From an uncultured Lacinutrix sp. (lineage in GTDB: Bacteria; Bacteroidota; Bacteroidia; Flavobacteriales; Flavobacteriaceae), in the NCBI RefSeq assembly GCF_947500325.1, contig NZ_CANMRQ010000001.1:374001-438000 (forward strand): DNA of 64,000 nucleotides. The letters run 5' to 3'. Each line of letters starts with the position of its first letter. The first letter of the stretch is position 1. The notes beneath the pieces are model-generated. The model saw only the letters and a program-made list of their open reading frames with translations, did not search any database and was not told the DNA's origin. Below are positions 8,702 through 24,027 of this stretch, one piece after another. Position numbers and translations under genes: made by a program.

Positions 8702-10918
8702 ATGAAAAAAATAAGATTTTTAATCCTATTTTTAATTTTCCCTACCTATTATATTAATGCGCAGGTTAATACTCCCGCTCAAAAGTCTTACCTAGACTCA
8801 TTAATTGTTAGGTCTAAAGAAATATACGGTACATATAACTTTAAAGAAGCTATTACTCTAAGTGCAAAACTTATTGAGAAGAGTGATGAATATAGAATAA
8901 GCTATCCAAAATATTATGGATATGATTTATTAGCAAATGTATATAGTAAACTAGATGATTCTACTAAAGCAAGAATTAATGCGCAAAAAGCAATTAAAAT
9001 AGCTAAAGAGATTAATAACGATACGCTTATAGGTGCTGGTAATCTTAAATTGGGCTCTATTTTATCTTATAACACTAATACATATAAAAAAGGAATTAGA
9101 TTATTAGAAGAGAGTATTTCCATTTATCATGAGAGTGATAACTTAGAGGCAATACATATTGCTTATATTAATATTACTAGAGCATTACTTGAAAATAATA
9201 GTTTAGATGAAGCTTACGACTATTTAAATAAAGCACACGTAATTGAAGATGAAATTGAAGTTTCGAAAATGAGTAAACTTCGTACTAACTTTTTACTTGC
9301 TACTTATTATTTTAAAAAGAAATATTATAATCTTGCAGAAAAAGAACTACTGTCTATTAGTGAAGATGTTGATAAAAGCTCAATAAATAGCCTTGGAACC
9401 ATAGTTTATAAGTATTTAAAAGAAATATATATTGAAAAGAAAAACTATAAAAAAGCTTTTTCGTGTCTTGAAAAGGAAAAAATGTATAGCGAAAAAATAT
9501 ATGCTTTTAAAAAAATAGAAGCTATTGAAGTCGCTAGTGGTCAATTTGAATTGAGCGAATATAGAAGAAACCTACAAGTTGCTATAAAGGATAAAGAGTA
9601 TGCGGCTAATGATAATAAAAAATCCAAACAGCTAACAACTATTTTGATAATTGCAACCGGAATTTTATTATTAGCTCTTTTAGGGTTCTTTTTGTTATTT
9701 AGTTCACGAAAAAAGTTTGTAAAACAGCTTAGTAAAAATAATGAAGAACTAACTATAGCAAAGAATAAAGCAGAAAAACTCTCAAAAGTAAAAAGTCAGT
9801 TTTTCTCTACGGTAAGTCATGAATTAAGAACGCCTTTGTATGGCGTTATTGGGATCTCTTCAATACTACAAGAAGATATTAAATTAAAATCTCACCAAAA
9901 AGAATTAAATTCACTTAAGTTCTCTGCAGACTATCTTTTAGCTCTTATTAACGATGTTTTATTGTTAAATAAAATGGATTATCAAGATCTTGTATTAGAA
10001 AAAATTCCATTTGAATTAAATGGCCTAGTAAGAAGTATTACAAATTCTTTTGAATTTAGTTTAGAGCAAAATAAAAATAGACTTTACGTTAGTATTGATG
10101 ATAAAATACCAAATAATTTGATTGGTAGTACTGTTCGTATATCTCAAATACTTATGAATATAATAGGTAATGCCACTAAGTTTAATGAGAATGGTAATAT
10201 TTGGCTAGATATCACTTCTCAAGGTTCAATAAATGAAGACTTACACCGCATTTTATTTGTTATTAAAGATGATGGTATTGGTATACCAAAAGAAAAACAA
10301 GACACAATATTTGAAGAATTTTCGCAAGTAGAAAATCATAATTATAGCCACAAAGGCACTGGATTAGGATTGCCTATTGTAAGGAAATTATTGAAATTAC
10401 ATAATAGTGATATTCATTTAAAAAGTGAATTAGGAAAAGGATCAGAATTTAGTTTTACTTTAGATTTATTAGAAAATAAAAACGTTGTAGAAACTTCTTC
10501 TGTATCAAATTTATCTTTAGATGAAATTAAATTAAAATATAATGAAGTCCATGTTTTAGTAGTAGATGATAATAAGATTAACCAAAAAGTTACGCAAAGA
10601 ATGTTAGAGCGAAATGATATAAAATCTAGTGTAGCAAACGATGGGGAAGAAGCTGTTAAAATGACTAGAGTTAATAATTATCAGTTAATATTAATGGATA
10701 TTAATATGCCTAAAATGAATGGTATTGAAGCGACGAAGGTTATTAGAACATTTAATGAAGACATTCCAATAATTGCACTAACTGCTGTAGAAATAGAAGA
10801 GATGCGAGCTGAAATTTTAGCATCTGGGATGAATGGGATATTATCTAAACCATATGATGCTTCTCAGTTTTTATCTACAATATTAAAAAGTATATCTAAA
10901 AGAGAAACGGTAAAATAA
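8702..10918 (+). CDS. Hybrid sensor histidine kinase / response regulator with TPR sensor
   Basis: 738 residues. A signal peptide (1-21) and a periplasmic TPR-type helical repeat region (about 40-285) come first. One membrane helix (about 312-333) is followed by a HisKA dimerisation domain with FSTVSHELRTPLYG (His373). The HATPase domain has an N box around IIGNATKFNENG, DDGIGIP and TGLGLPIV. The receiver domain has VVDD (622-623), phospho-acceptor Asp666 in LILMDINMP and Lys716 in SKPYD. All catalytic residues are present, so it should autophosphorylate and relay within one chain. No DNA-binding output is fused. Confidence 0.94.
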   Translation: MKKIRFLILFLIFPTYYINAQVNTPAQKSYLDSLIVRSKEIYGTYNFKEAITLSAKLIEKSDEYRISYPKYYGYDLLANVYSKLDDSTKARINAQKAIKIAKEINNDTLIGAGNLKLGSILSYNTNTYKKGIRLLEESISIYHESDNLEAIHIAYINITRALLENNSLDEAYDYLNKAHVIEDEIEVSKMSKLRTNFLLATYYFKKKYYNLAEKELLSISEDVDKSSINSLGTIVYKYLKEIYIEKKNYKKAFSCLEKEKMYSEKIYAFKKIEAIEVASGQFELSEYRRNLQVAIKDKEYAANDNKKSKQLTTILIIATGILLLALLGFFLLFSSRKKFVKQLSKNNEELTIAKNKAEKLSKVKSQFFSTVSHELRTPLYGVIGISSILQEDIKLKSHQKELNSLKFSADYLLALINDVLLLNKMDYQDLVLEKIPFELNGLVRSITNSFEFSLEQNKNRLYVSIDDKIPNNLIGSTVRISQILMNIIGNATKFNENGNIWLDITSQGSINEDLHRILFVIKDDGIGIPKEKQDTIFEEFSQVENHNYSHKGTGLGLPIVRKLLKLHNSDIHLKSELGKGSEFSFTLDLLENKNVVETSSVSNLSLDEIKLKYNEVHVLVVDDNKINQKVTQRMLERNDIKSSVANDGEEAVKMTRVNNYQLILMDINMPKMNGIEATKVIRTFNEDIPIIALTAVEIEEMRAEILASGMNGILSKPYDASQFLSTILKSISKRETVK

Positions 10919-10966: not shown

Positions 10967-11584
10967 TTAATTATTTCTTTTCGCACGTTCCAAATCTCGT
11001 TTTGCTCGTTCTAATTCCTTTTCTGCTCTTTCAAGATCACGCATAGCACGTTCGGTTTTTTTAGCTTCTTCTTTTTTTCGATCTCTACCAGAGATATAAT
11101 ATTTTAAGTCGTTCCCTAAGGCATTAATTTTCTTAGAGAATTCTTTAGAAGCATAATTTAAATCTACATGCATACGTAAACGACCATTTGTGAGTTTGCA
11201 TTCAAAAATTTCATCACTATTTTGATTGTTTGTCCATAAATAAGTGTTTCCATTAACACTTAAGTTTTTTTCTCCCAAAGCTTTAAATAACATTGTTTTT
11301 ACACCTTTGTTTTTAGTTTTATGAAAGCTAGCTCTAAACTTATATGTGTCTTCTGTAATAGAAACAGAAACAGAGCTGTTGGATGTTCTGTTATCATCAT
11401 TGTCAACTGAAATTGAATAAGAAACGCCTGTAGAAGTTGAAGGTGGTGTTGGTGGCTCTGGAGTAGATTGTGCATTTAATGATAATGTTGAAATAAAAGC
11501 AAATAAAATTGCTAAACTTACTCCTTTTTTTACATTAATAATTCTAATGATTTGTTGTCTTTCTTTTGATTTTGTAAAATTCAT
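10967..11584 (-). CDS. Secreted coiled-coil protein, target of the neighbouring two-component system
   Basis: 205 residues, not matched to a named family. A basic N-terminus and hydrophobic signal peptide end near LSLNAQ. A proline-rich linker (STPEPPTPPST) is followed by a beta-rich middle with VSYSISVDNDD and SSVSVSITEDTYKF. A charged C-terminal helix (about 165-205) has ERAEKELERAKRDLERAKR, a coiled coil with a heptad-like repeat. It lies just downstream of the response regulator gene but has its own promoter (11613-11620) preceded by a tandem-site motif (11658-11674), so it is likely controlled by that regulator. An envelope-stress accessory role similar in logic to CpxP is possible but unproven. 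Confidence 0.75.
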   Translation of the reverse strand: MNFTKSKERQQIIRIINVKKGVSLAILFAFISTLSLNAQSTPEPPTPPSTSTGVSYSISVDNDDNRTSNSSVSVSITEDTYKFRASFHKTKNKGVKTMLFKALGEKNLSVNGNTYLWTNNQNSDEIFECKLTNGRLRMHVDLNYASKEFSKKINALGNDLKYYISGRDRKKEEAKKTERAMRDLERAEKELERAKRDLERAKRNN

Positions 11585-11612: not shown

Positions 11613-11620
11613 CAAATGTA
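11613..11620 (-). promoter_or_regulatory. -7 element (TACATTTG) of the secreted coiled-coil gene
   Basis: A TAnnTTTG match on the minus strand, 28 bases upstream of the ATG at 11584. No TTTG -33 element is seen, which fits an activator-dependent promoter. The sequence from here to the start codon resembles that at 14033-13994. Confidence 0.65.
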
Positions 11621-11657
11621 GCGGACAGATTTGGTGAAAAAAAGAATATGGAGATCG

Positions 11658-11674
11658 TTAACCTAGCATTAACC
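11658..11674 (-). promoter_or_regulatory. Tandem response-regulator site, copy 1
   Basis: The plus strand reads TTAACCTAGCATTAACC: two TTAACC half-sites spaced 11 bases start to start, one helical turn, as expected for an OmpR/PhoB-type dimer. It lies 37 bases upstream of the -7 element, exactly as in the second copy at 14071-14087. Confidence 0.65.
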
Positions 11675-11690
11675 AATAAAGAAAAACGTA

Positions 11691-12377
11691 TTAACTTACT
11701 TTGAATTCTAAGCCTACATTTCTAATACTTTCAATAGTAATTGAAGTATCATGTTTAAAGTATTTACGAAGTCTGCTAATAAAGACATCCATACTTCTAC
11801 CAGAGAAGAAATCATCGTTTTCCCATACAGCTTTAAGAATATCTTCACGTTTTAAAAGCTGGTTTTTATGTTTAAAAAGAAATAGAATTAACTCGGCTTC
11901 CTTTTGTGTAAGTTGCTTATTATAATCTTTACATACAAGCTCTAAGCGATTGGTATCGAAAGTGTAGTTGCCAATATTTATAATAGCTTCTTGAGTTGTT
12001 TGAGTTGTTACTTTCTCTGTGCGCTTTAAAATATTGTTTAATCTAAGTACAAGTTCATCTGCTTCAAAAGGCTTAACAATGTAGTCATCTGCACCTAGCT
12101 TTAACCCTTTTATTTTATCTTCTTTAAGTTTGCGTGCCGTTAAAAAAATAAAAGGTATTTCGGGGTTAATATCAATTACTTTTTCAGCCAAAGTAAAACC
12201 ATCCATTTTTGGCATCATTACGTCAAAAACACAAATGTTATAACTTCCATTTTTAAATAATTCTAGAGCTTCTTTTCCATCTTTTGCCCAAGTTATATTG
12301 TAACCCGAAATTTCTAAATACTGTTTTAAAATATTTCCAAAATCTAAATCATCTTCTGCTAAAAGAATACGTTTCAT
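11691..12377 (-). CDS. OmpR-family response regulator
   Basis: 228 residues. The receiver domain (1-115) has AEDD, phospho-acceptor Asp52 in FDVMMPKMDG and Lys102 in VKPFEADELV. A winged-helix DNA-binding domain (about 130-228) has LTQKEAELILFLF and DVFISRLRKYF. It starts 11 bases after the histidine kinase stop, so the pair is an operon. It resembles the RprY-type regulators of Bacteroidota. Its probable DNA site is the tandem TTAACC-N5-TTAACC motif found twice next to this operon (inference). Confidence 0.95.
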   Translation of the reverse strand: MKRILLAEDDLDFGNILKQYLEISGYNITWAKDGKEALELFKNGSYNICVFDVMMPKMDGFTLAEKVIDINPEIPFIFLTARKLKEDKIKGLKLGADDYIVKPFEADELVLRLNNILKRTEKVTTQTTQEAIINIGNYTFDTNRLELVCKDYNKQLTQKEAELILFLFKHKNQLLKREDILKAVWENDDFFSGRSMDVFISRLRKYFKHDTSITIESIRNVGLEFKVS

Positions 12378-12388
12378 AATTTTTAAAA

Positions 12389-13783
12389 TTAATTAAAAGG
12401 AATAGTTAAAATGAAATTAGAACCACTGTTTTCTTTACTTTCTACTACTATATTTCCATGGTGAGCCTTAATAATCTGACTAGTATAATATAGCCCCAAA
12501 CCTAAACCTTTTACATTGTGAATTTCTTTATTGCCGGCACGATAGAATTTATCAAATACTTGTTTTTTTTCTTTATCTAAAATACCAATTCCATTGTCTT
12601 GTATTGAGATTTTTAATGTATTTATACTTTTAACTTCACAGTTTATAATAACTTCATCGCCTGAATATTTTACAGCATTTTCAAGAATATTTAATAACGC
12701 AGTTGTAAAGTAAAATTTATCAAGATTTATAGTATTCTTTGATTCTAAAAACTTTCTGTTTATAGTTATGTTTTTTGATTTTATAGATAATAGAAAGTCA
12801 TCTAAAATAGTATTGATGTAGTTTTTAATATTTACAGTTTCTAGATTAAGTTTAATTTCATTATAACCCAAGCTATTATTCAATACTTGATCTATTAATT
12901 TTTGTAACCGTTTATTTTGACGTTCAATAGTGTTTACTGTATTTTCTACCAGTTGAGGTTTTTTCTTGACTTCTTCTTTTTTAAGCATTTTAGTTGCTAA
13001 AGTTAGAGTTGCTAATGGAGTCTTAAGTTCGTGTGTGATATTATTAACGAAATCTGTTTTTATGTCTGCAATTTTCTTTTGAGTAATTAGACTTCTTATT
13101 GAATAATACAGTAAGCCTATGACTATTGAAAAAATAATTAAAGAGAGAAGAAGTAAGCCAAACATTTGTTTAAAAACAATTTTTTTCCATCCATCAATGT
13201 CCATTTCATCTTGAGTTTGAAACATTAAATAAAAGAGAACATCTTGCGTTTCTCCATTAACTACTCGGCTAGAAGTATGGTCTGTTTGCCAAAGTGTTGT
13301 ACTTACTCCAATTGCCTTTTCATCTATTATTGGATCACCTAAAACAATGCGTTTAGGTGTTTTATTAATATCAAAAAGAGTGTCATTTCTAGTAGAGTCT
13401 AATAAAATGATGGCTTTAACCTTTTTATGAAACTTAATACCGTAAGGAATATTGTTTTTTACTAACTCTTTTTGATACTCAATTCTATAGGTTTCATTAA
13501 TAGAATCGATAACCATTTCAAGACCATTAAGTACATCTGTTTTTGTTGCTAAATTAACTTTGTAATCTGCTATTCTATTTAAAAAGTTATCCTGCCAAAT
13601 ATCTGATAAAGAATCTAATGCTGGAGAAAAATCATCAAGCTGGGAAATGGATCTTCGAGTATCTGTAATAAAGGCTTCTTTTTTTAATTTATAAGTGTTG
13701 TTAATTAAGTAACCTTGAATAATAGATAAAGCAATTAATCCTAATATGGAAGTAATGATTAATAAGTTGATTTTTTTCTTCAT
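12389..13783 (-). CDS. Membrane sensor histidine kinase, partner of the OmpR-type regulator
   Basis: 464 residues. Two membrane helices (about 9-27 and 208-227) enclose a periplasmic sensor of about 180 residues. The HisKA domain has FVNNITHELKTPLATLTLA with His251. The HATPase domain has LENAVKYSG, DNGIGI and GLGLGLYYTSQI. No HAMP domain is obvious. It is RprX-like by layout. A terminator at 13826-13864 separates it from the small upstream gene, so it must have its own promoter within 13784-13825, where only a weak TAATTTTA is visible. Confidence 0.94.
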   Translation of the reverse strand: MKKKINLLIITSILGLIALSIIQGYLINNTYKLKKEAFITDTRRSISQLDDFSPALDSLSDIWQDNFLNRIADYKVNLATKTDVLNGLEMVIDSINETYRIEYQKELVKNNIPYGIKFHKKVKAIILLDSTRNDTLFDINKTPKRIVLGDPIIDEKAIGVSTTLWQTDHTSSRVVNGETQDVLFYLMFQTQDEMDIDGWKKIVFKQMFGLLLLSLIIFSIVIGLLYYSIRSLITQKKIADIKTDFVNNITHELKTPLATLTLATKMLKKEEVKKKPQLVENTVNTIERQNKRLQKLIDQVLNNSLGYNEIKLNLETVNIKNYINTILDDFLLSIKSKNITINRKFLESKNTINLDKFYFTTALLNILENAVKYSGDEVIINCEVKSINTLKISIQDNGIGILDKEKKQVFDKFYRAGNKEIHNVKGLGLGLYYTSQIIKAHHGNIVVESKENSGSNFILTIPFN

Positions 13784-13825
13784 TTGGATAATGTACAGAT
13801 CTTAAAATTAAGAATCATTTTAATA

Positions 13826-13864
13826 AAATGAGCACAATGTCATAAAAAGACATTATGCTCATTT
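13826..13864 (-). terminator. Strong intrinsic terminator of the 31-codon gene
   Basis: A 16-bp stem (13826-13841 with 13849-13864) with a 7-base loop. The single non-Watson-Crick position is a U-G pair in minus-strand RNA but a C-A mismatch in plus-strand RNA, so the hairpin is fully paired only for minus-strand transcription. A U-rich tail (UUUUAUU) follows the stem on that strand. It ends about 40 bases after the stop of the small ORF. Confidence 0.75.
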
Positions 13865-13900
13865 CGGTGATTGGTTGATTGATGAATTGATAAGTTCTTT

Positions 13901-13996
13901 TTACTTAATTAATCTATATCGCCTTCTTGAATTCCAGTGATGTGATTTTGTGTTTTGATGTCTTTCTGTAATTAAATTGTTGTTTAAAGTTCTCAT
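13901..13996 (-). CDS. Small 31-residue gene with its own promoter and terminator
   Basis: Encodes a 31-residue Arg/His-rich peptide beginning MRTLNNNLITERHQ and ending NSRRRYRLIK. It resembles no family I know. Support is contextual: a TTTG-N22-TAAATTTG promoter at 14026-14059, a two-component tandem site at 14069-14087, and a strong terminator at 13826-13864. Its ATG lies 37 bases from the start of the -7 element, against 36 for the co-regulated secreted gene at 11584, and the two leaders share TTTGTATCAT and CAATCATTAAAA. The transcript would be about 200 nt. It may be a peptide, a regulatory RNA, or both. The rest of the 424-base gap (14088-14207) shows nothing else I can support. Confidence 0.55.
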   Translation of the reverse strand: MRTLNNNLITERHQNTKSHHWNSRRRYRLIK

Positions 13997-14025
13997 GATG
14001 TTTTGATTTTTAATGATTGATGATA

Positions 14026-14059
14026 CAAATTTAGAAGGAAGAATTGAATTAAAACCAAA
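14026..14059 (-). promoter_or_regulatory. Promoter of the 31-codon gene
   Basis: On the minus strand, TTTG (14059-14056), a 22-base spacer, then TAAATTTG (14033-14026). Both Bacteroidota promoter elements are exact. The tandem regulator site begins 12 bases upstream of the TTTG. Confidence 0.65.
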
Positions 14060-14068
14060 AATGTACAT

Positions 14069-14087
14069 GGTTAACCTAGCGTTAACC
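14069..14087 (-). promoter_or_regulatory. Tandem response-regulator site, copy 2
   Basis: The plus strand reads GGTTAACCTAGCGTTAACC. It differs from copy 1 (11658-11674) at one base over the 17-bp core and sits at the same 37-base distance from its -7 element. Confidence 0.65.
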
Positions 14088-19323: not shown

Positions 19324-22300
19324 TTATCTACATTTTATTGTGCCATTTCTTAAACCTTGTCTTGTTTCTAACCTTAGTTTATCGACCTCATTTTTATACT
19401 GCTCTTTAGTCCAATTATTTTTCTCTCCTTCTATAGCTAATCTATCAAGCTTGCTTTTCATTAATTTATTATACTTAGCATGATCGCCAGTCCAACCTTT
19501 GTGAGCAGATCTGTCCCCATAGGCATCAATCTCTTCTGGAAGATAAATTAAGTTATCGAGCTTGTTAATATTATATCCAATAATTTTTAATGTTTTATGG
19601 TCATTTAATGATTTTGGAATTACATGATGCAATTGGAACCCATCTATCTTTGGCATATTGCCATAATTCCAACCATTTGGAGGTCTTTTTTTTCCTGGTG
19701 CTAAGCCAAATGGATCAAGCCAGCAATTAGAATCATGTGTGTAAGCATATATATTTGGATTGTTTCCAGCTAAACGAATTGGATCCTGTGATATATAAAT
19801 ACCTTCTTCAGGAGAATAATATCTAAACCTATTATAATACAAACCTGTTTCTATATCTTCATATTGTCCTTGGTATCTAAAAGGGCAGTCATCGGGATTT
19901 CCTTTTATCTGTTTTCTAATTTTACCATAAATATCATATTCTACCTGCCATGTTTTTTTACCTTCATTATTATACATTTCTACAGGAGTACCTAGATAAT
20001 CTGTAATTATTGAGTAATATTCACCATTTACAATTTTTGCAGCAGGTTTAAATGTATTTTGATCGAAAATCCAAGTAATTAAATTTGAGCTAATAGGTTC
20101 TTTTTTGTCCAGACTTAAGTGCCCATTATTATTGATAATAGTTTTTGGACGTTCTTTTAAATTATAATTCCATTCATGAAGAGGTACATTACCATCCCAA
20201 ACGAAGCGAGCAATTGTTGATTCTTTATCAGGTACTGTGTTTATTTTGGATTTGTGATTTACTATTTTAGAAGTACGACGTCCAAGAGCATCATACTCAA
20301 ATGAAACCTCTGTATAATCTGGTCGAAGTATTTTTTGTAACATACCAGACGCTTCCCAGAAATAATACCAGGTACCTTTAGGCGTTCTTTTTTGAGTTAA
20401 ATTACCTTCTGTATCATAGTCAAAATATGTATTACCAGAGCGTAATAATTTTCCGCTTTTAGTATATTCTTGATCTTTTTTATCTTTTGTACGATATAGA
20501 TTCCCTACTTCGTCAGGCAATTTATAATCATAAGAGTCATTCTCATAGTTAGCCCATGCCAGACTATTAAATACATTATATCCAAAATTTACCGAACCTG
20601 TATTAATTGTATCTACAATTGATCGTAGTTTATCATTAATATCCCAATTATATTGTTTGTCGCGATGTTCTTTGTTATTTCCTTTTATTTTGTGTCGTGT
20701 TGGTCTACCAGCGCTATCATATTGCCAATTACTGTTTGTGTTACCAGGCAAAGATCTTTCAGTTTCTTGTCCTAAGCTATTGTATTTAAATTGTGCTTGC
20801 CATTCTTCACTATTGTTTGTTTTTGCATACATTGAAATTACTTGTCCTAAATCTGAGTGATTAAAACGAATATCTGCGCCTAAACTACTTTTAATGTTTG
20901 TACGTAATCCTAATTCTCCATATTGACTATTTACAATATGTCCGTCTTGGTTCTCAGCTGTAATTCTTCCTGCTTCATCACGAATAAGTTTTACATGACT
21001 GTTAGAATTAATGGCTTCAATTAGCAAGCCATCTTTATTGTAATTGTATGTCGCCCATGTACCGTCTTGATGTTCAATTCTAGAAATACGACCTCCTAAA
21101 TCATACTCATAAAGGCTATATTTTTCATTAGGTCGTTCTATTTTAATAACTTTTCCAGCTTTATCTCTTTGAAATTGTCTTGTTATTCCATCAAAACCTT
21201 CTTCTTTAATTATATTACCTTTTAGATCTCTAGTAAAACGATAGAATTCGTCATGCTCGTTTACAATAGATATTAATTCTTCTTCAGAATTGTATCCAAA
21301 GCGTACTTTTACACCATTCTCTTCTCTAACTAAAAGATTTCCAAGTGCTGTATATTTAAATTTTACGGTACGTTGTTTATCTATAGCTTCAATAACTTCA
21401 TTATAATTATTATATTTAAGTTGGATTTTGTTTTTATCAGGTAAGTTGACATTAGTGACTCTACCTAAGGCATCGTAAGAAAACTGTTGTCTGTGATTTT
21501 CTGGGTTTATTGCAGCAATACATTGCCCCCATTGATTATACTCCCATTTAGATATAGTGCCATCTGGAAGTTTCATTGCTATTAGATTACAATCTTTATC
21601 ATAACTAAGAAATGTTTCATTGTCTAAATTATCGAAAACCTTAATAGGTAACCCTTTTGAATTGTATTGAAAAGTAGTCATGCTACCATCTGGTTGAATA
21701 ACACAATCTAATTTATTATTTTTATAGGATTTAACTACTGTTCCTCCTTCAGGGTTATTTGCAATAACAGCTCTTCCTAATTCATCATAAGTGTATTCAT
21801 AGGTGGCTCCATCTGGAAGTCTAATTTCTGTTAGATTTCCATAATCATCATAATTATAAGAGGTCTCAAGCCCTTCTTCATCAATTTCTTTAATTAATTC
21901 CTCTTGCTCGTTATATTCTTTTATTTGTATTCCTCCTAATGCGTCAATTTCTTTTATTCCTAGTCCATTGTTATGATAGAATGTACTTTTTCCATGTGGT
22001 TTATTCTGATAAATTGTATAATCTTGGAAGTATTCAAAAAAACCTTCCATAACACCATTATCTCCACTGGTGTATATACACTTAGAGCCAATAGTAATGC
22101 CATCATATTTCCAAAAAAACGTTTGCCCGTTACGATCTGTTTTAGAAATCATTAAATGATTTTTATATCGCATTTGTAGTGTTTTCCCCATTATATCTGT
22201 TATGCCAACAAGATTTTTTGAGTTATCGTAAGTGTAAGTAACTAATTCTTTTTTTTCGTCTTTGTTAGAAATAGTTATGTTTGATATTAAATTATTTTTG

Positions 22301-24027
22301 TTAGAGTTAATATTAATTACTTTACCTAAAGTATCAATAATTTTAATAAGTAAATTCCCATTATAATCAAATTTTATACTAGCTAAATCTGAATTAAATA
22401 TTTTTTTCAATCTAAAAATAGTGTTGTATTTTTCAAAACTATAAGTGAGTTGATTGTTATAATTAAAAAGTTCATAATTACCGTTATTTAAATACGTAAG
22501 TTTTAATTTTTCTTGTCGGTTATAATGGGTGTTCTTTTCTTTTGAAAGTTTTGGAAAAAAGGTTCCTCTTCCATCAGGAAGTCTTAATAATATAGTGGTT
22601 GTGTTTTCTTTTAAATGTAAATTATAACTATGATGAAATCCTGATCCTAAAGGGCCTTTATATTTAGAGTCTGAATACCAAACACGTTCCCATTTTATTG
22701 GTATTATACCTGGGATTTCGAAATCTATACCGGAATAGAACATTGCACCCGTAACTACATTTACAGGATCATTTTTACAGACCTGCGAGCCATCTGCTCT
22801 GCAGGAAGTCCCGTCATTATCCTTAGGTTGATTATTATCTCCATTTTTGTCTTTTGGTGGTGGAGGATCATCAGGTGTATTTATTGTTACATCTCCATCT
22901 TTATTTTTTGCTAATTTTGCAGCATTAGCTGCATCTGAACTCATTTGAAGAGTGTTTTCAGTTGTTCTTACCGAGTTTTTTACTGTATTTACTTTTTGTG
23001 TAACATTAGCAATCTGGCTTGAGCCTCCTGAAAGTAAGGTGAATGCAACTTCAAATCCGCCTCTACCAATTAGCTTTTGTACATCTGAAGCAGTAAGGTT
23101 ATTATACCACTTTTTAATGCCTTCTCCTTGAGCTTTTATAAATGCTTTATCACTTGCTTGTGCAGCAGCATAATCTTCTGGGTTTAAAACAGCATTTATT
23201 CTTGTTCTTCTATATATTGCTCCAGATGCTGAGACTACAGTGTCAATATCTTTTGATGCGGCTCCAGAGAAATCTTGAGTATAACCCCATAAATGTCCAC
23301 CAACTCCAACAACAAGATCTTTTGCTCCAGTTACTAAAGCTGCAGATCCTTCTAATGCACCTAGCCCAATAGTTGCAATGCCTTTATTTACATCCATCAA
23401 AGCTCTAGCTTCATTACCAACACCAAAACGATCCTCGGCGAAATTTTCTATATCATCAGATGCATCTTTAACTCCATCTACAACGGCTCCAATGCCGTCA
23501 CCTAAAGCTATATGAGCTTCTTGAGCTGTTTTTTTAACAGAATCTACAGCACCACCAATAGCATTACCAAGAGACTCCTTAGCGCTAGATAAAGAATCAC
23601 CTAAAGCTTGCTTTGCATCATTATATGGTGCAGTTACTTTATTTACTAGGCCGTTCATATTACTTTTCATTTTCTGAAAGGCATTAGGAGTTTCTGGTGT
23701 TGGAGCTTCGAGAACAATGCTAATTTCTCCTCCAGATCCTGTAGTGCAAGGTAATTTACTTTTGTGAGTTAATAATTTACCACCAGCACAAGTTACATCT
23801 GGAGCTAGGTTTGTCCATTCTTTAACACTTGGAGTGCATGCTGTTCCTCCATTAGCAGAGCAAGCTCCAAAACTTTGAAAATTTGTACCGAAAACGTTGT
23901 CTTTTTCAGTCCCTAAATCCATGCCATGGATAGTCGTATTTGGGTTTTTTATTATGAAAGGAGAAGGTTTAGGACATTTATCACATAATAAGTTTACGTT
24001 CTTTGGAACACATTTTTTTTCACTCAT
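19324..24027 (-). CDS. Rhs-family type VI effector: PAAR-like domain, RHS shell, C-terminal AHH/HNH nuclease
   Basis: 1567 residues. Residues 1-110 form a Cys-rich PAAR-like (DUF4280) domain that would cap the VgrG spike. About 110-370 is a Gly/Ala-rich amphipathic segment (repeats of SVKKTAQEA or GVKDASDD type). A DUF6531 start (DPVNVVTGAMFYSGIDFEIPG) follows near 420. RHS/YD repeats continue to the core end at about 1380-1444 (GLYYNRFRYYSPEEGIYISQDPIRL, ending DPFGLAP). The last 123 residues (1445-1567) are the toxin: LHHVIPKSLN, YNINKLDNLIYLP and HKGWTGDHAKYNKLM fit the AHH-type HNH/EndoVII nuclease pattern. It follows the linker gene by 3 bases and precedes the immunity gene. Confidence 0.92.
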   Translation of the reverse strand: MSEKKCVPKNVNLLCDKCPKPSPFIIKNPNTTIHGMDLGTEKDNVFGTNFQSFGACSANGGTACTPSVKEWTNLAPDVTCAGGKLLTHKSKLPCTTGSGGEISIVLEAPTPETPNAFQKMKSNMNGLVNKVTAPYNDAKQALGDSLSSAKESLGNAIGGAVDSVKKTAQEAHIALGDGIGAVVDGVKDASDDIENFAEDRFGVGNEARALMDVNKGIATIGLGALEGSAALVTGAKDLVVGVGGHLWGYTQDFSGAASKDIDTVVSASGAIYRRTRINAVLNPEDYAAAQASDKAFIKAQGEGIKKWYNNLTASDVQKLIGRGGFEVAFTLLSGGSSQIANVTQKVNTVKNSVRTTENTLQMSSDAANAAKLAKNKDGDVTINTPDDPPPPKDKNGDNNQPKDNDGTSCRADGSQVCKNDPVNVVTGAMFYSGIDFEIPGIIPIKWERVWYSDSKYKGPLGSGFHHSYNLHLKENTTTILLRLPDGRGTFFPKLSKEKNTHYNRQEKLKLTYLNNGNYELFNYNNQLTYSFEKYNTIFRLKKIFNSDLASIKFDYNGNLLIKIIDTLGKVININSNKNNLISNITISNKDEKKELVTYTYDNSKNLVGITDIMGKTLQMRYKNHLMISKTDRNGQTFFWKYDGITIGSKCIYTSGDNGVMEGFFEYFQDYTIYQNKPHGKSTFYHNNGLGIKEIDALGGIQIKEYNEQEELIKEIDEEGLETSYNYDDYGNLTEIRLPDGATYEYTYDELGRAVIANNPEGGTVVKSYKNNKLDCVIQPDGSMTTFQYNSKGLPIKVFDNLDNETFLSYDKDCNLIAMKLPDGTISKWEYNQWGQCIAAINPENHRQQFSYDALGRVTNVNLPDKNKIQLKYNNYNEVIEAIDKQRTVKFKYTALGNLLVREENGVKVRFGYNSEEELISIVNEHDEFYRFTRDLKGNIIKEEGFDGITRQFQRDKAGKVIKIERPNEKYSLYEYDLGGRISRIEHQDGTWATYNYNKDGLLIEAINSNSHVKLIRDEAGRITAENQDGHIVNSQYGELGLRTNIKSSLGADIRFNHSDLGQVISMYAKTNNSEEWQAQFKYNSLGQETERSLPGNTNSNWQYDSAGRPTRHKIKGNNKEHRDKQYNWDINDKLRSIVDTINTGSVNFGYNVFNSLAWANYENDSYDYKLPDEVGNLYRTKDKKDQEYTKSGKLLRSGNTYFDYDTEGNLTQKRTPKGTWYYFWEASGMLQKILRPDYTEVSFEYDALGRRTSKIVNHKSKINTVPDKESTIARFVWDGNVPLHEWNYNLKERPKTIINNNGHLSLDKKEPISSNLITWIFDQNTFKPAAKIVNGEYYSIITDYLGTPVEMYNNEGKKTWQVEYDIYGKIRKQIKGNPDDCPFRYQGQYEDIETGLYYNRFRYYSPEEGIYISQDPIRLAGNNPNIYAYTHDSNCWLDPFGLAPGKKRPPNGWNYGNMPKIDGFQLHHVIPKSLNDHKTLKIIGYNINKLDNLIYLPEEIDAYGDRSAHKGWTGDHAKYNKLMKSKLDRLAIEGEKNNWTKEQYKNEVDKLRLETRQGLRNGTIKCR

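Follow-up and report, generated by a model that had tools for sequence, protein, structure and literature searches.

The repeat recognised by the Escherichia coli regulator ArcA resembles GTTAA. ArcA sites are built from direct repeats spaced 11 base pairs (bp) from centre to centre, and extra repeats are common in them (PMC3798270). In Riemerella anatipestifer, PhoP binds upstream of its own operon in electrophoretic mobility shift assays (PMC9603813, PMC5399024), and its motif is said to be ArcA-like, with TTTAACA (TGTTAAA on the other strand) as its most conserved letters (PMC9603813). Our interest here is in a comparable 17-bp direct repeat that occurs twice beside a sensor kinase and response regulator pair in a 64,000-nucleotide stretch of an uncultured Lacinutrix sp. 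(contig NZ_CANMRQ010000001.1, positions 374,001 to 438,000; hereafter the window, in which all positions are numbered). We consider it highly probable that this repeat serves as operator for the OmpR-family regulator whose gene lies between its two copies, and that the regulator would act on its own operon and on one adjacent target.

Comparison with these described systems shows both likenesses and differences. The window sites share with the ArcA box the 11-bp direct repeat and a regulator of the OmpR/PhoB family, binding in the window being predicted only, and the extra ArcA repeats at 11-bp steps (PMC3798270) have their counterpart in triple sites of Flavobacterium. ArcA is nevertheless a global regulator whose box is found in 158 of 176 bound regions (PMC3798270), whereas the genome studied here carries two sites, and the two systems differ in phylum, promoter type and regulator subfamily. 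The Riemerella PhoPR system is likewise an OmpR-type pair, from a related bacterium, and has an autoregulatory upstream site (PMC9603813, PMC5399024), but 583 peaks were obtained for PhoP by DNA affinity purification sequencing as against two sites here, and the flanks of its core differ from GGTTAAyG (PMC9603813). The main texts on RprXY of Bacteroides and RprY of Porphyromonas contain neither the word motif nor the word consensus (PMC3646045, PMC6032018), and an OmpR-type regulator mutation in Flavobacterium johnsoniae could not, from the available part of that report, be tied to the window regulator gene (PMC10197871). RprY provides the closest named NCBIfam model for the window regulator (NF051850, an equivalog), yet the score of 237.9 bits lies below the cut-off of 370 and is exceeded by that of a neighbouring paralogue in the same-genus genome G010 (262.1 bits, also below the cut-off). 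Identity with RprY was therefore not accepted, and the regulator is best left unnamed.

In the CpxAR-CpxP system, cpxP is divergent from cpxRA. The window resembles that system in having a secreted-protein gene beside the two-component pair, apparently under the same regulator, and the homologous gene diverges from the kinase gene in L117, L120 and L121 (Moheibacter, Mucilaginibacter and Pedobacter), L193 and L194. Unlike CpxP, however, the 205-residue window protein matched no curated family in Pfam or NCBIfam at an expect value (E) of 0.001, and it was not assigned to the CpxP family. On sequence grounds, the predicted window operator is a well-supported further case of the arrangement known from ArcA and Riemerella PhoP.

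Two matching promoters around a kinase-regulator pair

The elements of the locus follow one another on the minus strand in the order site 1, -7 box, micro open reading frame (micro-ORF), hairpin, kinase, regulator, site 2, -7 box and secreted-protein gene. Site 1 (GGTTAACGCTAGGTTAA, 14071-14087) is the predicted regulator binding site of the operon's own promoter and is the one kept upstream of related kinases; the Bacteroidota-type -7 element TAAATTTG (14026-14033) lies 37 bp downstream of it. Site 2 (GGTTAATGCTAGGTTAA, 11658-11674) stands in the promoter of the next gene, again with a -7 element (TACATTTG, 11613-11620) 37 bp downstream. Read on the plus strand, TTAACCTAGCATTAACC at 11658-11674 and TTAACCTAGCGTTAACC at 14071-14087 differ at 1 of 17 positions; on the minus strand both sites have the form GGTTAA-N5-GGTTAA, with TAnnTTTG exactly 37 bp downstream. 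The tandem sites, the single mismatch and the fixed distance reported in the first-pass annotation are correct base for base, and the matching leaders to which it drew attention, TTTGTATCAT and CAATCATTAAAA, occur on either strand of the window solely at these two promoters. Its picture of twin promoters bracketing an operon holds in that the sites flank the pair, but both promoters face the minus strand, one being the operon's own and the other that of the next gene. Both putative promoters carry the TAnnTTTG element of Bacteroidota primary-sigma promoters.

The sensor histidine kinase (12389-13783, minus strand, 464 residues) combines HisKA and HATPase_c domains with a distinct N-terminal region, which is predicted to be flanked by membrane helices. 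In its AlphaFold model (mean predicted local distance difference test score, pLDDT, 80; predicted template modelling score, pTM, 0.47) the N-terminal helix and a long helix leading toward the core are separated by helices and a beta-rich segment, and the solved structures listed as matches cover mainly the core. The response regulator (11691-12377, minus strand, 228 residues) belongs to the OmpR/PhoB family by its Response_reg (PF00072, E 2.1e-28) and Trans_reg_C (PF00486, E 2.3e-15) domains, both above the cut-off.

Within the window, GGTTAA-N5-GGTTAA was found twice as compared with a mean of 0.02 and a maximum of 1 in 300 dinucleotide shuffles, and GTTAA-N6-GTTAA-N30-44-TAnnTTTG was found twice as compared with 0.01. 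A search of the whole genome (4,567,300 bases, 4.57 Mb) for GTTAA-N6-GTTAA-N37-TAnnTTTG yielded two perfect, no one-mismatch and 29 two-mismatch sites. The reversed pattern, used as the control for pattern searches, yielded 37 with up to two mismatches, placing the two-mismatch sites at background, and a large regulon in this genome was rejected for the strict pattern. The repeat pair without its promoter is not enriched, GTTAA-N6-GTTAA occurring 33 times in the genome versus 47 times for the control, and TTAACC-N5-TTAACC with up to two mismatches is at chance level in the window (10 versus 10.95). The distinctive feature is the repeat pair together with the promoter spacing, not the pair alone.

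The site upstream of related kinases

Conservation of motif and spacing upstream of orthologous genes, which the first-pass annotation had proposed as a test, was evaluated in the best 80 loci of a genome scan by kinase alignment, with kinases from 81% (Psychroserpens luteolus) to 30% (Mucilaginibacter) identical. GTTAA-N6-GTTAA lies at most 1.4 kb upstream of the kinase in 78 of the 80 loci, a predicted site that would make the operon autoregulated. The proposed conservation was borne out in 70 of the 80, where the repeat pair stands exactly 36 or 37 bp before TAnnTTTG; the count is 69 with a 1-kb limit, and 76 when one box mismatch and spacings of 36-38 bp are permitted. The loci failing the relaxed test (L122, L124, L125 and L126) are all partial kinase matches beginning at around residue 200 of the query, which puts their kinase starts further upstream. 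On neither strand was the repeat pair found in the first 2 kb from the kinase start (80 loci, 160 kb in total), and 200 mononucleotide shuffles produced 0 loci with the geometry. The spacing histogram within 1 kb has peaks at 36 (34), 37 (36) and 25 (32), with no more than 3 at any other spacing. The peak at 25 bp corresponds to the third half-site of Flavobacterium, where the middle one of three half-sites is 36 bp from the box.

A consensus built from 51 sites at 37-bp spacing, two of them from the window and with one box mismatch permitted, reads gGTTAAyG-N3-rGTTAAyG (conserved core GTTAAyG-N3-rGTTAAyG). The length of the spacer is fixed and most of its positions are weakly conserved, except for a T-rich segment, 24-29 bases from where the pair begins; in Flavobacterium the spacer is more conserved, as expected among closer relatives. 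Searching the genome and its relatives with the motif, as had been suggested earlier, supported the relaxed GTTAA core and the spacing. The exact GGTTAA-N5-GGTTAA was rejected as the conserved form, this 17-mer preceding a -7 box in 1 of 59 other genomes of relatives.

The two-site layout of the window also recurs. A second site precedes the gene following the regulator in 9 of the 80 loci (L047-L054 and L059), and five family genomes (G094, G229, G120, G353 and G182, G120 being the same locus as L051) have two matches on one contig, at pairs, with the sites 2.2-2.5 kb apart in four and 3.8 kb apart in one. The proximal pair is preceded by another array at a distance of 106-108 bp, about 10 helical turns, in L053, L055, L056, L057, L062, L068, L075 and L114, and at a distance of 127-128 bp, about 12 helical turns, in L094 and L118; in L116, which has 38-bp spacing, the distal array is 96 bp from the proximal pair. 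Because these distal distances differ by about two helical turns, cooperation on the same face of the DNA is suggested. In L044, L045, L046, L053, L054 and L059 just 4 bp separate the end of the -7 box (imperfect in L044-L046) from the kinase ATG, suggesting that the kinase messenger RNA is leaderless or nearly so in these loci.

The association was also examined from the motif side. A search of 397 family genomes for the pattern with 36 or 37 bp spacing returned 81 matches in 59 genomes versus 8 with the reversed pattern. Apart from the window, 24 loci have a second half-site reading GGTTAA followed by C or T (strong loci), and 23 of them were examined, one in G205 being left out; 17 loci with other second half-sites (weaker loci) were also examined, and 33 of the 81 matches lie outside the examined set. 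In 21 of the 23 strong loci the site lies next to the kinase-regulator pair or a divergent relative, and the pair adjoins none of the 17 weaker sites, in agreement with the earlier view that the sites belong with the pair. In L191 the pair is more divergent (32% and 44%), in L184 another gene stands between the first site and the kinase, and in L186 the second site alone was found. The kinase-first and motif-first tests overlap, as L181, L183 and L187 are contigs of L058, L075 and L051. Nine of the 17 weaker sites precede one recurrent TetR-like gene, judged by eye. At this gene (L200-L208), a palindrome of the type ACAGAC-N2-GTCTGT lies between the GTTAA pair and TAnnTTTG.

A proposed regulatory circuit and its alternatives

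The assignment of the repeat as the regulator's operator is read from the motif, its fixed 36/37-bp distance to TAnnTTTG, its conservation and its adjacency to the kinase-regulator pair. In the circuit that we propose, an envelope signal would cause the kinase to phosphorylate the regulator, and the regulator would bind as a head-to-tail dimer with one monomer on each of the two GTTAAyG half-sites, which are one helical turn apart. The TAnnTTTG box lies 46 bp downstream of the centre of the site. Transcription in Bacteroidota starts a few bases past the -7 box, and with such a start the dimer centre would fall approximately 55-65 bp upstream of it, near -60. Activators near -60 commonly contact polymerase from upstream, and a location upstream of the core promoter is in keeping with activation. 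The regulator would then activate its own operon of micro-ORF, kinase and regulator as well as the adjacent secreted-protein gene, whose product probably acts on the envelope and, as a guess, may feed back on the kinase. For this genome we infer a compact positive-autoregulation module of two promoters and not a global regulator.

Several observations weigh against this proposal. The link from regulator to site is one of genomic association, and a factor always co-inherited with the pair could produce the same association. The set of 80 loci is phylogenetically uneven, and kinase matches are patchy, being present in 5 of 13 genus genomes (E 1e-55) and 5 of 60 relatives (E 1e-60), own genome included. 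The second site is missing in 71 of the 80 loci, including every locus labelled Flavobacterium, and in the Flavobacterium loci the secreted-protein gene is usually not seen downstream among the matches listed. Strong sites occur away from the pair in L178 and in L192, which has two copies before a duplicated gene. In the same-genus genomes G008, G010 and G011 the repeat pair is exactly 37 bp before imperfect boxes (TAATTTTC, TAATTTAA and TAATTTAA, respectively). A class-wide search gave 17 matches in 15 of 149 genomes, mostly weak forms, versus 4 for the control; the strict geometry is thus mainly a Flavobacteriaceae feature.

The alternative that fares best retains the same operator and regulator and has the regulator repress these promoters, which we regard as unlikely. 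With 37 bp between its end and the -7 box, the window site is outside the core promoter, and the constancy of this distance (36/37 bp) is what contact with polymerase would lead one to expect. Against this, a protein bound to the third Flavobacterium half-site, 25 bp from the -7 box, could block polymerase there, and an OmpR-type regulator is able to do both in Riemerella, where 34 directly bound genes rise and 16 fall upon deletion of phoP (PMC9603813).

Less probable still is binding of the site by some other regulator inherited along with the pair, for instance a paralogous OmpR-type protein or a different factor nearby. The looser GTTAA-N6-GTTAA does occur before other genes, including the recurrent TetR-like gene, and the TTTAACA core of the Riemerella PhoP motif overlaps the half-site (PMC9603813). 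The contrast between strong and weaker examined loci in adjacency to the pair (21 of 23 versus 0 of 17) nevertheless argues for the regulator of the pair. So does G010, where an RprY-like paralogous pair lies directly upstream without a half-site pair in the 560 bp before it, and the neighbouring window-type kinase has one. That the two copies stem from a recent duplication of the promoter region, their likeness reflecting descent and not binding, is very improbable. The leaders do match too, but the intervening 37 bp match poorly, and promoters of the 81% to 30% identical kinases keep the repeat and spacing while most spacer positions vary.

The predicted secreted protein, the leader micropeptide and their significance

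The second predicted target of the regulator is a gene at 10967-11584 (minus strand) for a predicted secreted protein of 205 residues, with a signal-like N-terminus by eye, a serine/threonine-rich linker, an alpha/beta domain and a C-terminal helix; the domain is well predicted and without a clear relative. Homologues of this protein, five searched in Pfam and three in NCBIfam, gave either no match or matches below the cut-off to unrelated families. In many relatives the homologous gene adjoins the pair, either following the regulator or diverging from the kinase, and the 7-kb stretch containing it in G002 has neither a GTTAA pair nor a recognised kinase-regulator pair. A gene at 8702-10918 (plus strand), convergent with the secreted-protein gene of the window, encodes a hybrid histidine kinase that has a TPR-like region and a receiver at its C-terminus. 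Elsewhere in the window, 19324-24027 (minus strand) encodes a 1567-residue RHS-repeat-like protein with a histidine-containing C-terminus and small genes after it, by eye a locus of the polymorphic-toxin type.

The first cistron of the operon, overlooked in the first-pass annotation, is the micro-ORF of 31 residues plus stop (MRTLNNNLITERHQNTKSHHWNSRRRYRLIK, 13901-13996, minus strand). It is separated from the kinase by a terminator-like hairpin (13825-13865, minus strand) with a predicted 17-bp stem, a 7-base loop and a U-rich 3' side. Long hairpins were obtained in 4 of 5 other leaders folded and are of two sequence types, one in the window, L047 and L051 and the other in L048 and L049; in L057 the kinase has its own site. 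The hairpin could allow high expression of the micro-ORF and yet limit that of kinase and regulator. The micro-ORF is kept in L047, L048, L049, L051 and L057 and not in the other long leaders listed.

The encoded micropeptide is a member of a multi-copy Flavobacteriaceae family of 27-31 (about 28) residues, roughly MRTLNxNx(I/L)(T/S)...WNxKRR(Y/F)R, that has no match in Pfam or NCBIfam at E 1. A profile of six sequences matched 32 of 99 genomes, own genome included (E up to 0.05, the weakest being doubtful), with up to 12 matches per genome and tandem copies about 115-185 bp apart. Among 32 DNA copies of 84 bases, compared in all 496 pairs, synonymous divergence (0.56) exceeds nonsynonymous divergence (0.22), which supports translation of the copies, with the limits that most copies were selected by a pattern fixing the first codons, lowering nonsynonymous change there, and that the pairs are not independent.

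Twenty stretches (L227-L246) were examined for micropeptide clusters, 2 of them being without a recognised peptide. The sequence TGTAAC-N16-CGTC, which we take to resemble an extracytoplasmic-function (ECF) sigma promoter, lies upstream of 14 of 18 clusters away from this pair, 31 to 197 bases from the peptide (L227, L229, L232, L234-L238, L240-L242 and L244-L246). It is often accompanied by a TACTTTGT...GTACTGTAAC block (or TACTTTGT...CATAGTAC) and by a GTTAA pair about 10 bp apart, so that the region looks like an ECF-sigma promoter with an operator. In L227 and L246 a second micro-ORF of 44 residues (MKAIINxLRxSxRIT...LWxGxxRYAH) follows the first micropeptide, and the cluster in L239, which overlaps L203 of the TetR-like gene set, also contains a micropeptide. 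Among the literature matches listed, judged by titles and the beginnings of abstracts, no description of the motif or the micropeptide was recognised, which does not show their absence from print.

The two-component system considered here ranges from Psychroserpens, Winogradskyella and Lacinutrix to Flavobacterium and Pedobacter, and the analysis gives it a specific and testable candidate operator, GTTAAyG-N3-rGTTAAyG placed 36/37 bp before TAnnTTTG. Because the regulon looks tiny in its own genome, with two promoters, it can be tested completely, and the fixed geometry offers an indication of how polymerase may be contacted by activators at promoters of Bacteroidota. Work on the operator also led to the unnamed micropeptide family. 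More tentatively, the locus may represent a widespread Bacteroidota envelope-sensing module of a new make-up, comprising a two-component pair and a secreted protein tuning it, both unnamed, together with a first-cistron micropeptide of 27-31 residues in one branch. The family of this micropeptide, occurring in tandem copies under several stress-type promoters, could be an effector common to distinct stress circuits of Flavobacteriaceae. If this is true, standard annotation may be missing a micropeptide effector that these circuits have in common.

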